Shown here: positions 7,852 to 55,992 of the stretch, in pieces | Numbering within the stretch: position 1 is the first letter of the stretch | How the letters are laid out: each line of letters opens with the position of its first letter | Source: Pseudotabrizicola sediminis | Lineage (GTDB): Bacteria; Pseudomonadota; Alphaproteobacteria; Rhodobacterales; Rhodobacteraceae | Direction: 5' to 3' | NCBI RefSeq assembly: GCF_004745575.1 | Contig: NZ_RPEM01000012.1 | Span: 34,913-98,912, forward strand | Length of the DNA stretch: 64,000 nucleotides | The notes under the pieces: generated by a model | Told to the model about the DNA's origin: nothing | Seen by the model: the letters and a program-made list of their open reading frames with translations, nothing else | Database searches by the model: none | Program-made: the position numbers and the translations under genes

Positions 7852-8940
7852 ATGACCGACTATTCCGACGCAATTTCCTCTGTCGAAGACATCATCGACG
7901 ACGCGCGCAACGGGCGCATGTTCATTCTGGTCGATCATGAAGACCGCGAGAATGAAGGTGATCTGGTGATCCCGGCGCAGATGTGCACCCCGCAGGCGGT
8001 GAACTTCATGGCGACCTATGGCCGGGGCCTGATCTGCCTTGCGCTGACCGCCGACCGCGTGGATCAGCTTGGCTTGCAACCGATGAGCCCGAAGAATTCC
8101 TCGCGGCTGGCATCGGCCTTTACCCTGTCGATCGAGGCGCGCGAGGGGATTTCCACCGGCATTTCCGCCGCTGACCGGGCGCGCACCGTATCTGTCGCCA
8201 TCGACCAGACCAAAGGCCCGCAGGATATTGCCACGCCGGGCCACGTCTTTCCGCTGCGCGCCCGCGATGGCGGGGTGCTGGTGCGGGCGGGTCATACCGA
8301 GGCGGCGGTCGATGTGGCGCGTCTGGCGGGGCTGAACCCGTCGGGCGTGATCTGCGAGGTGATGAATGACGACGGGTCCATGGCGCGTCTGCCCGACCTG
8401 ATTGTGTTTGCGCAAAAGCACGGGCTGAAGATCGGCACGATTTCCGACCTGATCGCCTATCGCCGCCGCAACGACAATCTGGTGAAGCTGACCGAAGAGC
8501 GCGCCGTCACCGCCGAATTCGGCGGTGACTGGACCATGCGGATCTATACGGACGTGACCGAAGGCGCGGAACATGTGGTGCTGATCAAGGGTGACATCAC
8601 CACCCCCGGCTCGGTGCTGACCCGGATGCACACGCTTGACCCGCTGCTCGATGTGGTGGGCCTTGGCGGGGCAGGGCGCACGGCGGAATTCGGCGCGGCG
8701 ATGAAGCTGATCGCCGCCGAAGGGCGCGGCGTGTTGGTGTTGCTGCGCGAGCTGGATCGCAAGCTGGTGTCGGACGACGCCTCGCCCCAGACGCTCAAGC
8801 AATATGGCATCGGCGCGCAGATCCTGGTGTCGCTGGGGGTCAATGACCTGACCTTGCTGACCAATTCGCCGCAGCCGAAGGTTGTCGGGCTGGACGCCTA
8901 CGGGTTGTCGATCACCGGCACCCGCAAGATCACGGAGTAA
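7852..8940 (+). CDS. ribB: RibBX: 3,4-dihydroxy-2-butanone-4-phosphate synthase fused to a degenerate GTP cyclohydrolase II domain
   Basis: The N-terminal half (about 1-205) is a complete DHBP synthase, converting ribulose 5-phosphate to the four-carbon riboflavin precursor: the acidic motif DHEDRENEGD (28-37) and TPGHVFPLRARDGGVLVRAGHTEAA (128-152) are intact. The C-terminal half (about 210-360) is homologous to GTP cyclohydrolase II, but the zinc-binding cysteines are gone: after RMH (258-260), where RibA has E-C-L-x-G-D...C-D-C, this protein reads TLDPLLDVVGLGG, and there is no Cys after residue 168. The HRQEGRNIGL active-site stretch is also replaced by LRELDRKLVSDD. This fits the RibBX class described in Proteobacteria, so it should supply RibB but not RibA activity. 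It is followed three bases later by ribH. Confidence 0.93.
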   Translation: MTDYSDAISSVEDIIDDARNGRMFILVDHEDRENEGDLVIPAQMCTPQAVNFMATYGRGLICLALTADRVDQLGLQPMSPKNSSRLASAFTLSIEAREGISTGISAADRARTVSVAIDQTKGPQDIATPGHVFPLRARDGGVLVRAGHTEAAVDVARLAGLNPSGVICEVMNDDGSMARLPDLIVFAQKHGLKIGTISDLIAYRRRNDNLVKLTEERAVTAEFGGDWTMRIYTDVTEGAEHVVLIKGDITTPGSVLTRMHTLDPLLDVVGLGGAGRTAEFGAAMKLIAAEGRGVLVLLRELDRKLVSDDASPQTLKQYGIGAQILVSLGVNDLTLLTNSPQPKVVGLDAYGLSITGTRKITE

Positions 8941-9941: not shown

Positions 9942-10116
9942 TGTGCCATGGCGTTGTGCGCCAGCAGACGGTTCTTTGCTGACCGGATTTCCCTGACATC
10001 GCCGAAAGTCTAAGGCGGCAGTTACCAACGCTGCACAAATCGCCCACCTGCGGCGAAATGGACCTTTCGCTTTTCCATGGCAGCGCTAGTCTTAGGGTCT
10101 GGTCAGGAGCACAGAC

Positions 10117-40408: not shown

Positions 40409-40502
40409 AAACGACGCATTCACGTCGCCGGTGAATGGCGCGCCCTGTCCTGCTTTCGTCCATCCTGCCATCACGCGGCCCGGACGGGCCAAAGGAGGCG
40501 GG

Positions 40503-42059
40503 ATGACTGACGTTCAGGATCGCAAACGCCGGGCCGGAGGCCGGGCCGGCAACAAGGCCCGCGCGGGGTCTGCCGTGATCGACCAGATGCCCTGGCGCAT
40601 CCCGGTCAACCCCGACCGCCCGACTGAGCCGCTGGATGCAGATGGCGTCCAGCGCATACATCGGGGTGCCATGACCATCCTGTCCGACATCGGCATCGAA
40701 TTCCTGAACCCCGAAGCGGCAGAGATCCTGCGCAGGGCAGGCTGCATCGTCACCGGCACCAATGTCCGCATGGATGAGTCGTTCGTGATGGAAATGCTGA
40801 CCCATGCGCCGGACAGCTTTGCCATCTCCCCGCGCAACGTTGCGCGGCGGGTGATCATGGGCGGCAAGCATATGTTGTTCGGCAATGTCTCCTCGCCGCC
40901 CAACGCCTGGGATCTGGAACGCGGCAAACGCTCGGGCGATATGGCAACGTTTCGCGAATTCACCAAACTGACCCAGTATTTCAACTGCATCCACCTGAAT
41001 GGCGGCTATCCGGTGGAGCCGGTCGATGTGCATGCAAGCGTGCGGCATCTGGACTGTCTGCATGACCAGCTGACCCTGACCGACAAGGTGGTGCACGCCT
41101 ATTCGCTGGGGGCAGAGCGGGTCGAGGATGTGATGGAGATGGTGCGCATCGCCGCTGGTCTGTCGCCATCGGAGTTCGACGCCAGCCCGCGCATGTTCAC
41201 CAATATCAACTCGGTCAGCCCGTTGAAGCATGATTACCCCATGCTGGACGGTGCCATGCGCATGGCCCGGCGCGGCCAGCCGGTGATCGTGACCCCCTTC
41301 ACGCTGGCGGGGGCGATGGCACCCGTCACCATGGCGGGCGCGGTGGCGCTGAGCCTTGCCGAAGCATTGGCTGCCATTGCCCTGCTGCAATACATCGCCC
41401 CCGGCTGCCCGGTTGCAATCGGCACCTTTACCAGCAACGTTGACATGAAATCTGGTGCCCCCGCCTTTGGCACACCGGAATACATGCGGGCGACGCAAAT
41501 GACCGGTCAGTTGGTGCGGTTCTACGGCCTGCCGCTGCGGTCCTCGGGCGTTTGTGCGGCAAACGTGCCCGATGGCCAGTCGATGTGGGAAACATCGAAC
41601 AGCCTTTGGGCCGCCGTGCAGTCGCGCACCAACCTTGTCTATCACGCGGCGGGCTGGCTGGAGGGCGGGCTGATCGCGTCGCCTGAGAAATTCGTGATGG
41701 ATTGCGAAGTGCTGCAGATGATCCAGCGCTACTTTGAGGAGGCAACCTTCGCCACGAGCCCCGATGACATCGCCCTTGATGCCATCCGCGAGGTGGGGGC
41801 GGGCGGCCATTACTTCGGCTGCCAGCACACGCAAGACCGCTATCAGACCGCGTTCTACGCCCCCTTCGCCAGCGACTGGCGCAATTATGAGGCGTGGCAG
41901 GCGGACGGCAGCCATTGGACCCCGGAACGCGCCCACCGGATCTACAAACAGATCCTGGCTGAATTCGAACCGCCTGACATGGACCACACCGCCCGCGAAG
42001 AACTGACCCGGTTCGTCGCCCGCCGCAAGCAAGAGGGCGGCGCGCCGACCGATTTCTGA
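40503..42059 (+). CDS. MttB-family corrinoid methyltransferase homologue (non-pyrrolysine)
   Basis: 518-residue TIM-barrel protein of the trimethylamine:corrinoid methyltransferase superfamily. Conserved stretches include HRGAMTILSDIGIEFLNPEAAEIL, GGKHMLFGNVSSPPNAW, MFTNINSVSPLKHDYPMLDGAM and GVCAANVPDGQSMWETSNSLWAA. Its frame contains no in-frame TAG, so it is a non-pyrrolysine member, as in bacterial MtgB-like glycine-betaine or related methyltransferases. AAAGGAGG directly precedes the ATG at 40503. Substrate unknown: quaternary amines are the usual guess. No corrinoid protein (MttC) or activating gene is adjacent. Confidence 0.85.
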   Translation: MTDVQDRKRRAGGRAGNKARAGSAVIDQMPWRIPVNPDRPTEPLDADGVQRIHRGAMTILSDIGIEFLNPEAAEILRRAGCIVTGTNVRMDESFVMEMLTHAPDSFAISPRNVARRVIMGGKHMLFGNVSSPPNAWDLERGKRSGDMATFREFTKLTQYFNCIHLNGGYPVEPVDVHASVRHLDCLHDQLTLTDKVVHAYSLGAERVEDVMEMVRIAAGLSPSEFDASPRMFTNINSVSPLKHDYPMLDGAMRMARRGQPVIVTPFTLAGAMAPVTMAGAVALSLAEALAAIALLQYIAPGCPVAIGTFTSNVDMKSGAPAFGTPEYMRATQMTGQLVRFYGLPLRSSGVCAANVPDGQSMWETSNSLWAAVQSRTNLVYHAAGWLEGGLIASPEKFVMDCEVLQMIQRYFEEATFATSPDDIALDAIREVGAGGHYFGCQHTQDRYQTAFYAPFASDWRNYEAWQADGSHWTPERAHRIYKQILAEFEPPDMDHTAREELTRFVARRKQEGGAPTDF

Positions 42060-42211: not shown

Positions 42212-42919
42212 ATGGAAAACCAGGCCGCCACAGCAGCATTGCCGTTTTCGCAGTCTCTCGGGGAGATGCTCAGCTTCATCGCAATGGGCGGCCCTGCCAT
42301 GTGGGCCATTGCGGTGCTGTCGGTGCTGACCGTAGCGCTGATCCTGTAGAAGGTGATGCGCCTGCTGTCCTTTGGCGCATGGTCGGGCGGCGGCCACACC
42401 GCCCGCGCGCTGGAGATGTGGGCGGCGGGCCAGACCGATGCGGCGATGGCGGCACTGGCTAACCGGCAGTCACTCCGCGCCCGTCTGGCGCTTGCCGCGA
42501 TGCAATCCGCGACGAACCCCGCGCTGGACCAGGCCGGGGCCGAGGCGGAAACCGGCCGCGTCGCGCGCAGCCTGCTGGCGCGGGCCCGCACCGGATTGCG
42601 CGGGCTGGAACTGGCCGCCACCATCGGCCCGCTTTTGGGTCTTCTGGGCACAGTCACCGGCATGATCGCCGCCTTTCAGGCCTTGCAAGAGGCCGGGCCG
42701 CGCGCCGACCCGGCCGCTCTTGCCGGTGGCATCTGGGAGGCGATTCTGACCACCGCCGCCGGGATGGCGGCGGCGATCCCGGCCTCGGTCGCGCTGACAT
42801 GGTTTGAAAGCGTGGTCGACGGCTTGCGCCGTGACATGGAGGATTCGGCGACCCGCATCCTGCACGGTGCGCGTGCGGTGCCCGACATTGGCCACACTGT
42901 CCGCCGCGCCGCCGAATGA
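42212..42919 (+). pseudogene. exbB: ExbB/TolQ-type proton channel with an in-frame amber codon
   Basis: Frame from ATG 42212 reads MENQAATAALPFSQSLGEML, then a first hydrophobic helix (PAMWAIAVLSVLTVALIL), then TAG at 42347-42349 (codon 46), and continues in the same frame without further stops to 42919. The continued part has the family core LELAATIGPLLGLLGTVTG followed by WEAILTTAAGMAAAIPASVALTWFE. In family members the codon after VALIL is usually Trp, Glu or similar (ILWK), so TGG to TAG is likely. The truncated product would lack the membrane channel helices 2 and 3. A GTG-ATG pair at 42353-42358 could reinitiate, giving a protein without helix 1. A sequencing error is possible. exbD follows with a four-base overlap. 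Confidence 0.85.
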
Positions 42920-43338
42920 TCTCCTTTGCGACAGACCGTCCGCGCAGGCGGCCCAACCTGAAGCCGATGATCAACGTGGTCTTCCTGCTGCTGATCTTCT
43001 TCCTGATCTCTGCCCGGCTGACCCCGCCCGAACCCTTTGCCGTCACCCCGCCCGAAGCCCAGGCCGAGGTCGAGGCGCAGGGCGATTTCACCCTGTTCAT
43101 CAGCGCCAAGGGCCAGCTTGGCTGTCGTGACCTGCTGGATGATCCGGCCCTTGCCGCCATTGAAGCTGCCCGCACCGGCCACTGCGCCGTCACCGATTGC
43201 GCGACAGATCCGACGCGTCTGACCCTGCGCGCAGATACCGCCCTGCCAGCGGCGCGTCTGGCGCAGATCCTGCCGCGCCTCGTCCCGCTTGGCTTCGCGC
43301 AGATCGAACTGGTGGCCCAACCGGGGTCAATGCCATGA
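42916..43338 (+). CDS. exbD: ExbD/TolR-type biopolymer transport protein with Asn at the conserved Asp site
   Basis: 140-residue periplasm-facing protein with one N-terminal membrane helix. It reads NLKPMIN20VVFLLLIFFLISARL; in ExbD and TolR this helix normally contains PxxD (PLIDVVFLLLIFF), the Asp (Asp25 in E. coli) that carries protons and is essential. Here it is Asn20, from codon AAC. The periplasmic domain (FTLFISAKGQLGCRDLL, LTLRADTALPAARLAQIL) is recognisable. It overlaps exbB and tonB by four bases each, consistent with an exbB-exbD-tonB operon. Either the system is decaying, or this lineage uses an ExbD without the acid; the partner exbB is itself damaged. Confidence 0.85.
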   Translation: MISFATDRPRRRPNLKPMINVVFLLLIFFLISARLTPPEPFAVTPPEAQAEVEAQGDFTLFISAKGQLGCRDLLDDPALAAIEAARTGHCAVTDCATDPTRLTLRADTALPAARLAQILPRLVPLGFAQIELVAQPGSMP

Positions 43339-44219
43339 GCGCGCGTCTGCAAGCCGGTCTGGCCATCGCCCTGGCCCTTTTTCTGCATGTCGCGCTCTTT
43401 GCCATCCGCACGCCGCAGGCGGGGGCGATGCCTGCCGGGGCAGCGGGCACGGGTCTCGTCTCGCTGCAAGCCGCCGATGCCACGCTGGCAGACCTGATCA
43501 CCGAATGGGACCGCCCGCCCACGCCGGACCCCGAACCGGTGGCCGAACTGACCCCGCCCGTTCGGCCCGACACGTTCGCCCCGCTGACCCCGGTTGCAGA
43601 ACCTGCGCCGCCCCAAATGCCTGCGCCCCAAGCCGTGGCCCTGCCGCAAATGGCCGAGGCCCCGCTGCGCGCTGATGTCAGCCTGCCGCCACCCCCTGAA
43701 CCGAAACCAGAGCTGGAACCGGTGCCCGAGCTACGGCCCAAACCCAGACCGGTTGATCTTGCCAAACCCGACCCCGCGCCAAAGCCAGAGGCCGAGGCAC
43801 CGAAAGCCGCAGCAAAACCCGCTCCCCAAACACCTTCTGCCGGGCAGGCCGCGCAACGCGCCGCAGGCAGCGGCGGCGGGGCGCAGGCCGGTGACAGCGG
43901 CAGCGCACAGGCGGCCACAAGGTCCGCGGCGCAGCAAAACGATCTCAAGGCCAGCTGGGGGGCCACCATCCGGAGCCGGATCGAGCGGCGAAAATCCTAT
44001 CCCACCGCTGCCCGCGGGGCCGCTGGCACCGTCACCGTGCGGCTGACCGTCAGCCGCTCCGGCACGCTTACGGGGGTGGGCATCACCAATTCCTCCGGCA
44101 ATGCGGCGCTCGATCAGGCGGCTGTGCGGGCGGTGCAGTCGGCCCGCTTGCCCGCTGCCCCGGTGGGCCTGACCGATGCCAGCTATTCCTTCAGCTTGCC
44201 AATGACCTTCCAGCGCTGA
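43335..44219 (+). CDS. tonB: TonB energy transducer
   Basis: 294-residue protein with one membrane helix near the N-terminus (LQAGLAIALALFLHVALFAI), a long periplasmic Pro/Glu/Lys-rich linker (about residues 65-165, with PEPKPELEPVPELRPKPRPVD) and a C-terminal TonB domain (ERRKSYPTAARGAAGTVTVRLTVSRSGTLTGVGITNSSGNAALDQAAVRAV). It lacks the usual YPxxA only in detail (SYPTAA is present). It would carry proton-motive energy to outer-membrane receptors for iron and vitamin B12. Start at 43335 is by ATGA overlap with exbD. No TonB-dependent receptor is encoded in the window. Confidence 0.9.
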   Translation: MSARLQAGLAIALALFLHVALFAIRTPQAGAMPAGAAGTGLVSLQAADATLADLITEWDRPPTPDPEPVAELTPPVRPDTFAPLTPVAEPAPPQMPAPQAVALPQMAEAPLRADVSLPPPPEPKPELEPVPELRPKPRPVDLAKPDPAPKPEAEAPKAAAKPAPQTPSAGQAAQRAAGSGGGAQAGDSGSAQAATRSAAQQNDLKASWGATIRSRIERRKSYPTAARGAAGTVTVRLTVSRSGTLTGVGITNSSGNAALDQAAVRAVQSARLPAAPVGLTDASYSFSLPMTFQR

Positions 44220-51585: not shown

Positions 51586-51931
51586 GGTGATCTCCGCTAT
51601 TGGGCTGTCGAATGGTCATCTGCCGCGCATACTAACCGCGACGGCACGGGATACAAGCAGGCAGGGCGAAGATCAAGCGGCCCCGGTCACTCGGCCCGCC
51701 AGTTTTCCGTTTACAGACCGCACATCTTCGCCTATCGACACCAGATGACCAGACGGCACGCCCTTATCCGACGTCCCCGACGCTTCTGAGCGAATGGTTA
51801 CGCATGGCCCGGCGCACAGGGCCATTCCCCAGATTGACACCCCCTGCGGTCCCCCGCTACGGCTTGGCTTCCCCCTTCGTTCAGGGAAGACCCATCGTTC
51901 CGGTTCCGCCAGACCCCGAAAGGCATGTGCC

Positions 51932-54189: not shown

Positions 54190-54744
54190 CTACCCCATCT
54201 GGTGTTTCAGGATGACGGGGATGATCAGATCCTCCTCATCCTCCAGATGCCGGATCAGCTGACGCTCGAACGGTGCAAGGCTGGCGTGAAAGGCCAATGC
54301 CGCCTCACGCGCATCGGTGGCCTGCAGGGCATCGTTGGCCGAGGATACAAAGCCATCCAGCAAGCCATCCAGCGCGTGGTGGTCGCTGTCCAAGAGCTCG
54401 AACCCGCGCGCAAGGCGTGGCTCCAGCTTGACCATGGCCGGGAAATAGCTTGCATCTTCAATCTGATGATGTCCGATCAGCCCCTGCACCAACTGCTCGC
54501 CGCCACGCAGCAAGCGGCCCTGCCAGCGCTGCGGGTCGATGCGCCCGCCTGACATGTGTTCCGCATCGAGCCGCAGGCCCGACATCAGGTCGCGAAAGCC
54601 CAGATGGCGGTCCAGCCAGAAGGCCGAAAGCCCCTCGAACCCCGGCACATCCGACCACCCCGCACGCGGCCAGTCGGCCAGCAGGGTCACAAGGTCGGGC
54701 GGCAGGCGGTCGCGGCGGGCAAGATCATGCGTCATGCGTTGCAC
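54190..54744 (-). CDS. Hemerythrin-like domain protein
   Basis: 184-residue helical protein with hemerythrin-type metal residues: HHQIEDASYFP, DSDHHALDGLL and RHLEDEEDLIIPVILKHQ. The pattern H...HxxxE...H...HxxxD is partly conserved, so a di-iron site is plausible. Bacterial hemerythrins bind oxygen or nitric oxide or act in iron sensing; role unknown here. ATG at 54744, or alternatively 54735. Convergent with argF, and only 21 bases from the MFS stop at 54766. Confidence 0.82.
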   Translation of the reverse strand: MQRMTHDLARRDRLPPDLVTLLADWPRAGWSDVPGFEGLSAFWLDRHLGFRDLMSGLRLDAEHMSGGRIDPQRWQGRLLRGGEQLVQGLIGHHQIEDASYFPAMVKLEPRLARGFELLDSDHHALDGLLDGFVSSANDALQATDAREAALAFHASLAPFERQLIRHLEDEEDLIIPVILKHQMG

Positions 54745-54765
54745 ATATCCTGATACGCGGGCTGT

Positions 54766-55992
54766 TCAAGCGCCCATCGCCGATGTGCCTGTGTCAGGCC
54801 GCCTTGCGGGCGGGCCAGGTTCCAGCACCGCCTGGACCTCATCTGCGCCCGATGTGCGGCCTGCCAGCACGGCGACCACGATCAGGAGCACCGACAGCAC
54901 GGCATAGGTGACGCGGAAACCGATGGCTTCGGCGACAAAGCCGATGCTGGCCGGGGCCACCAGAATGCCCGCATAGCCCACCATCGTCACCGTCGAAATT
55001 GCAGTGCCAGAGGGGATGCCGGGGTAGTTTCCGGCGGCGGAAAACAGGATCGGCACCATATTGGCCACGCCAAGCCCGGTGATGAAAAACGCTGCAATTG
55101 CAAGGGTATCTGTGGGGGCCAGTGCCGCCAGCATCATGCCCGCCGCCGCCAGCAGACCCGACACCTGCAAGGTCAGCACCGCGCCAAAGCGGTTGCGCAC
55201 CCCATCCCCTGCAAAGCGCATGATCGCCATCGCCCCGGCAAAGAACGCAAAGCCAAGGCCAGACCGGAACACATCCGACCCCATGTCCTTTTGCAGATAG
55301 ATCGCCGCCCAATCCAATACCGCGCCTTCGGGCACCATGGAAAACAGCGCAAGCGCCCCCAGGAGCCACAGGCCTGCCGCGCGCGGCAGCAGCACAGTCT
55401 TTTCGCCCGGCACGGCCGGGGCCACCGGGGCTGGGGCCTCGCCGCGCAAAAAGGGCATTACTGCCAGTGCCATAGCCGCCGTCAGCAGCGCCACCAGCCC
55501 GGCCTGCACCTCGGCCCCCCAGCGGGAAATCACCCATGCCCCGGCGAAACCGCCGACGAAACCACCAAGGCTCCAGAACCCGTGGCTGGAGGACATGATC
55601 GCCCGGCCCAGCCGCCGTTCGACCTCGACCGCATTGGCGTTCATCGCCACATCCATGCTGCCGATCAGCGCGCCAAGTAGCGCCATCGCCGGAACGAGTA
55701 TCGGAAGAGACGGGGAAAATACCACCACCGGCAAGGCCGCTGCCGAGGACAGGGCAAAGCCGCGCAGCACCGCCACTGATCCGAAGCGCCCGATCAGCCG
55801 GCCGGTGAACAGCATCGCCGCCACCGCGCCTACGCCCAGCACAAGTATAAGTAATCCAAGGGTAAATTCGGTGATCTGATGGCGCGGGAGCAGCAGCGGG
55901 ATCTGCGGGGCCCAGGCCCCCATGACAAAGCCTGCTGCGGCAAACATCATCGCCACTGCCCAACGGGCACGTTTTGCCTCTGCCATGGTCAT
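54766..55992 (-). CDS. MFS transporter
   Basis: 408-residue inner-membrane protein with 12 predicted helices. It starts ERWAVAMMFAAAGFVMG-like helices (residues about 10-35), has the MFS loop LFTGRLIGRFGSVAVLRG between helices 2 and 3, and ends in a polar tail. The sequence FLTLGLLILVLGVGAVAAML and GSMDVAMNANAVEVERRLGRAIMSSSHGFWSLGGFVG is typical of the fucose/'YbjJ'-like MFS group. Substrate unknown. Convergent neighbour is hemerythrin; the upstream gap to DUF1127 is 243 bases. Confidence 0.87.
   Translation of the reverse strand: MTMAEAKRARWAVAMMFAAAGFVMGAWAPQIPLLLPRHQITEFTLGLLILVLGVGAVAAMLFTGRLIGRFGSVAVLRGFALSSAAALPVVVFSPSLPILVPAMALLGALIGSMDVAMNANAVEVERRLGRAIMSSSHGFWSLGGFVGGFAGAWVISRWGAEVQAGLVALLTAAMALAVMPFLRGEAPAPVAPAVPGEKTVLLPRAAGLWLLGALALFSMVPEGAVLDWAAIYLQKDMGSDVFRSGLGFAFFAGAMAIMRFAGDGVRNRFGAVLTLQVSGLLAAAGMMLAALAPTDTLAIAAFFITGLGVANMVPILFSAAGNYPGIPSGTAISTVTMVGYAGILVAPASIGFVAEAIGFRVTYAVLSVLLIVVAVLAGRTSGADEVQAVLEPGPPARRPDTGTSAMGA

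Follow-up and report, generated by a model that had tools for sequence, protein, structure and literature searches.

In solved Ton motors, a pentamer of ExbB encloses two ExbD helices (PMC6778125). E. coli ExbB (5sv0) and its relatives belong to the MotA/TolQ/ExbB family (PF01618). We analysed a 64,000-nucleotide stretch of Pseudotabrizicola sediminis DNA (the window; contig C4, 34913-98912), part of a genome (G000) of 4.04 Mb in 86 contigs. The nearest named relatives of the window are Pseudotabrizicola and other Rhodobacteraceae, and the matches listed in a plasmid search show 69-76% identity. The window carries a gene fragment that shares the PF01618 domain and, like the known systems, has exbD and tonB behind it. 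In an intact orthologue (P0002), the C-terminal half matches solved ExbB chains. Unlike the ExbB of TonB systems, however, the window gene is interrupted after codon 45, and what follows falls under the cut-off for ExbB equivalogs.

The interrupted exbB gene

The locus comprises the following features, all on the plus strand.

40431 to 42059, plus strand: MTTB-type methyltransferase (upstream neighbour) with no internal TAG, identified by open reading frame and domain search; used as a dN/dS control and outside the proposed system
42212 to 42349, plus strand: exbB 5' fragment of 45 codons (N-terminus and hydrophobic first-helix stretch), terminated by TAG, from translation
42347 to 42349, plus strand: premature amber codon where the orthologues examined have a Trp codon, from translation and alignment
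42353 to 42919, plus strand: exbB 3' fragment, a 188-aa open frame (GTG 42353, ATG 42356) with a MotA_ExbB domain, from open reading frame and domain search
42916 to 43338, plus strand: exbD, unbroken, with an ATGA overlap with the exbB stop codon, from open reading frame and domain search
43335 to 44219, plus strand: tonB, unbroken, from open reading frame and domain search

Translation of 42212-42919 gave a single internal stop, the TAG at codon 46. Translation and domain search agree with the initial annotation that this codon interrupts exbB of an exbB-exbD-tonB operon, so the gene lacks a single uninterrupted frame that includes the first membrane helix. The GTG and ATG that the annotation had placed directly behind the TAG (42353-42358) are present and in frame, and open the 188-aa frame. 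On its own, the 3' fragment is recognised as MotA_ExbB (PF01618) with 86.9 bits against a curated cut-off of 22.9, and scores 49 bits against the 206.2 required by the NCBIfam exbB equivalog model. ExbD (PF02472) and then TonB (PF03544) directly adjoin it downstream. An Rfam scan of the locus gave two matches only, both under the gathering score.

Tryptophan occupies residue 46 in all 119 aligned homologues (from the best 120 of 3813 matches, the window's own removed). The codon is TGG at 11/11 loci of the same genus and at 43/43 named loci, all with at least 60% identity, some genomes being in both sets. None of these 54 loci has a stop at the position. The annotation had expected tryptophan or another residue here; the former holds, and in close relatives no other residue was seen. 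Twelve further loci with less than 60% identity are mostly paralogues, in which the aligned position is variable. Among the databank matches listed, no further cluster exceeds 88% identity to the window exbB, and the window's own 187-aa cluster represents two sequences from one contig. Judged by these comparisons, the amber codon is private to the G000 lineage.

A broken cobalamin uptake operon in the same genome

We identified window-type exbB (threshold 130 bits) in 44 of 120 family genomes that are at least 95% complete. Counted by eye, a receptor with a Plug domain is present in 42 of these 44, versus 27 of the 76 genomes without window-type exbB. Twelve loci (L185-L196) were chosen because exbB has a receptor gene on its own strand some 4-6 kb away, and one more locus was added. 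All 12 encode, in order, a cobalamin riboswitch, btuB, btuF, btuC, btuD, (in six) cbiZ, exbB and exbD; having been selected by proximity, they give no frequency for this linkage. tonB was detected in eight of the 12, some of which are cut near a contig end, and also in the thirteenth locus, which starts inside btuC. By its consistent linkage to a riboswitch and btuBFCD, window-type exbB-exbD is a member of the cobalamin operon in those relatives. Linkage to btuB under a cobalamin riboswitch was thus found at the relatives and not at the window itself: this genus differs in keeping exbB-exbD-tonB apart from btuBFCD-cbiZ. In G000, both halves carry lesions. The second half lies on another contig (C34).

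L172 7200-11530 (C34 167200-171530), minus strand: decayed cobalamin uptake operon with a btuB remnant, btuF with a TAG and an insertion, btuD with a deletion, and unbroken btuC and cbiZ, from comparison with G013

Measured on the G013 frame of 704 residues, the btuB remnant retains matches to residues 255-530 and 634-704 (71.7% and 74.6% identity). Residues 1-254 and about 531-633 are missing, and with them the plug (124-231). btuF has an in-frame TAG at L172 10167 and a 1-nt insertion at 10013, and the btuD-like ATPase gene has an 8-nt deletion at 8298, while btuC and cbiZ are unbroken. The intact G013 copies were assigned to TonB-B12 (best model, under its cut-off), Peripla_BP_2, FecCD, ABC_tran and CbiZ. 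All six relatives tested have a cobalamin riboswitch ahead of the receptor gene; none was found in L172, or on C34 in a genome search in which 150 of 293 candidates were scored. That search located three cobalamin riboswitches in G000, on C67 and C78. The one at C67:169374 (L206) lies 5' of a gene for class Ib ribonucleotide reductase (NrdE). C78 also carries genes for CobN, CobW, a CobD-like protein, CobI, CobJ, precorrin-8X methylmutase and an adenosyltransferase. From these several synthesis genes we infer that G000 probably makes B12 de novo.

As the annotation had proposed, we searched the genome for a second exbB. One was identified on C78, in addition to a tolQ-like gene on C23. The C78 copy accompanies the only Plug domain found in G000; a search with the barrel family adds the C34 remnant only. 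The receptor is of the heme type (TIGR01785 at 375.6 bits, cut-off 316.85).

C78, L147 7212-12053: heme-type receptor accompanied by exbB, exbD and tonB of its own; the sole intact TonB-dependent receptor found in G000

Within the genus, 12 of 16 genomes have window-type exbB. In ten of the 11 carriers other than G000, a receptor lies outside the heme operon; none was found in the eleventh (G015), which is 82% complete. Three genomes of the genus (G004, G005 and G006) have a receptor without window-type exbB, and strict pairing everywhere is therefore disfavoured. Two of them (G004 and G006; loci L166 and L184) encode a TonB-dependent receptor, but their only ExbB-family match is tolQ-like. 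Fourteen family genomes encode both window-type exbB and the other type (70-130 bits in this sample); by eye, only in G000 does the sole receptor stand beside the other exbB.

Selective constraint and competing explanations

Branch dN/dS values were calculated from the trio G000, G003 and G013, and are given in that order (brackets, 95% bootstrap intervals). For exbB-exbD-tonB they are 0.31 (0.22-0.46), 0.16 (0.12-0.21) and 0.16 (0.10-0.23). The heme system (0.15, 0.17 and 0.20) and the upstream mttB (0.07, 0.06 and 0.08) are not raised in G000. Two marks of a pseudogene are thus present in exbB-exbD-tonB, a private disabling lesion and a lineage dN/dS raised against controls, with intervals that just touch (lower end 0.22, upper end 0.23). 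Single-gene values are noisy: exbB alone has a ratio of 0.42 on the G000 branch, where dS is low, and the exbD of the heme system alone has 0.21, 0.13 and 0.15. Relative rates of amino acid change (outgroup G001) were 42 versus 23 against G003 (p 0.025) and 34 versus 21 against G013 (p 0.10), a modest excess; ahead of the exbB stop the direction is opposite (1 versus 5 and 2 versus 3). For mttB the counts are 10 versus 8 (G003) and 8 versus 8 (G013). The moderate rise in dN/dS fits a recent loss. Values for cbiZ are 0.28, 0.23 and 0.16, and btuC shows no relaxation (0.11, 0.12 and 0.11), which may either fit recent loss or speak against decay of btuC.

The annotation had left four explanations unranked. 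Recent inactivation is the best supported, because the stop is private, the btu operon is independently broken and constraint is relaxed. The amber in exbB is probably a genuine nonsense mutation of fairly recent origin, in the motor that would have energised BtuB, a receptor with a broken operon of its own in G000.

A one-base error of sequencing or assembly, or a heterogeneous sample, would leave exbB intact in the organism. The unbroken exbD and tonB would suit this explanation, as would the two-sequence, one-contig databank cluster with no listed neighbour above 88% identity. We consider it unlikely, given the background of stops in the window, the large deletions and indels of the partner operon, which go beyond a one-base error, and the raised dN/dS of exbB-exbD-tonB. 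When all relatives' open reading frames were used, the stop screen was swamped by shadow frames in this GC-rich DNA, and a codon-position GC filter was applied. Of 121 frames of G003, G013 and G001 that align to the window, 22 have internal stops, at 22 sites (the screen counts sites rather than genes and would miss single-base errors that produce no stop codon). Fifteen sites precede the start of an unbroken frame and four fall under an unbroken frame on the opposite strand. The site at 51746 is explained by an over-long start; the argD-like gene concerned is open. The one at 54550 belongs to a frame opposite another frame (judged by eye and the least certain). exbB is the lone site attributed neither to an over-long start nor to a shadow frame. 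With 21 of 22 flagged stops otherwise explained, the window is therefore not riddled with errors, on a background that comprises the window plus a small number of 20-kb stretches. A Fisher test was discarded, as a set of 53 window frames had been preselected as stop-free and C34 was fetched after the broken receptor had been seen there. A minus-strand frame at 54193-54819, which shares 90% identity with a G003 open reading frame, has an in-frame stop near its start, ahead of an in-frame ATG, and likely reflects an over-long start.

Certain members of the MTTB family use amber as pyrrolysine, and an MTTB-family gene sits upstream of exbB. With the further in-frame TAG in btuF, this is what might favour a suppressor tRNA or recoding that reads the amber through to full-length ExbB. 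The btuF copy, however, carries a frameshift too, and TAG is the terminal codon of 6 of the 53 conserved window frames (a set preselected for having no internal stop and used here for terminal codons only). The search of the genome for a suppressor tRNA suggested by the annotation yielded none with a CUA anticodon. RF00005 has 41 matches in G000, called as ordinary tRNAs by ARAGORN except at C12:437670 and C1:456544, and none of those named has this anticodon; ARAGORN adds one tRNA-Tyr missed by the family search, so the survey is not exhaustive. A pattern search for CUA tRNAs hit six places (a known tRNA-Ser, a known tRNA-Arg and four that are not tRNAs). The best match to pyrrolysine synthetase (PylS) scores 31.3 bits, and the cut-off is 178.15. 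Thus neither a CUA tRNA, within this non-exhaustive survey, nor a pyrrolysine synthetase was identified, and we regard readthrough as extremely improbable. Amber recoding by way of the neighbouring MTTB gene was dropped as a candidate, with PylS far under its cut-off and no CUA tRNA found. The RF00005 match at C12:437670-437778 (L132) is 109 bases long and has no ARAGORN tRNA call.

Translation could instead restart at GTG 42353 or ATG 42356, giving a working ExbB without helix 1, perhaps alongside a 45-aa helix-1 peptide, in which case the gene would be split and not dead. The in-frame starts lie only 3 and 6 nt past the stop. Computed anti-SD pairing before the ATG (-4.6 kcal/mol) is close to that at the exbB start (-4.7), but absent before the GTG (0.2), and the dN/dS of the downstream frame (0.42) is below 1. 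Re-initiation past the stop is possible on these sequence features. Close relatives whose exbB is unbroken (e.g., G003 and G013), however, have AAGGTGATG behind codon 46 as well, and the start bases are therefore not an adaptation. A programmed split would be expected to show a stop kept among relatives, and no split gene occurs at any of the 54 loci with at least 60% identity. Given also the increased dN/dS of exbB-exbD-tonB on the G000 branch and the broken partner receptor, a functional split gene is very unlikely.

Receptor loss and the proposed loss of its motor

The co-occurrence of the exbB stop and a broken B12 receptor operon in one genome makes ordinary decay of an unused pathway likely, rather than new decoding. 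With several B12 synthesis genes present, the receptor route may no longer have been needed. A dedicated B12 motor would then have been left without a client, and a stop could accumulate in exbB. The 45-aa product and any re-initiated product of 187 or 188 aa would be non-functional, as ExbB minus its first helix would be unable to form the pentamer that encloses ExbD. exbD and tonB would be expected to decay next. We infer both the order of these events and the B12 specificity of the window motor. Against uniform decay, exbD, tonB, btuC and cbiZ are all unbroken.

Part of this sequence of losses resembles the domino theory of gene loss (PMC6027505). There, losing one gene lowers the selection that acts on its functional partners, and these may be lost in turn. 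The difference is that the theory was studied in Buchnera endosymbionts, and here the genome is 4.0 Mb and a single uptake pathway is affected. A literature search by title and start of abstract gave no report on this exbB lesion, and the available portions of PMC10203341 and PMC3621897 do not address it.

A stronger form of the proposal is that receptor and motor are paired so strictly that loss of one receptor retires a whole motor. The heme-only motor would stay, and the B12-only exbB-exbD-tonB, split from its riboswitch-btuBFCD operon, would die. The chances of this are about even. If it is true, loss of B12 scavenging would be a stepwise process legible in one genome.

The lesion is very likely real; it is ordinary in kind and informative in context. 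It recasts an odd stop codon as one lesion of a decaying pathway, and it names vitamin B12 uptake as the likely client of the window's otherwise generic exbB-exbD-tonB operon. If this is right, operon comparison can match dedicated Ton motors to their receptors in this family, and the species is predicted to synthesise B12 and no longer to scavenge it.
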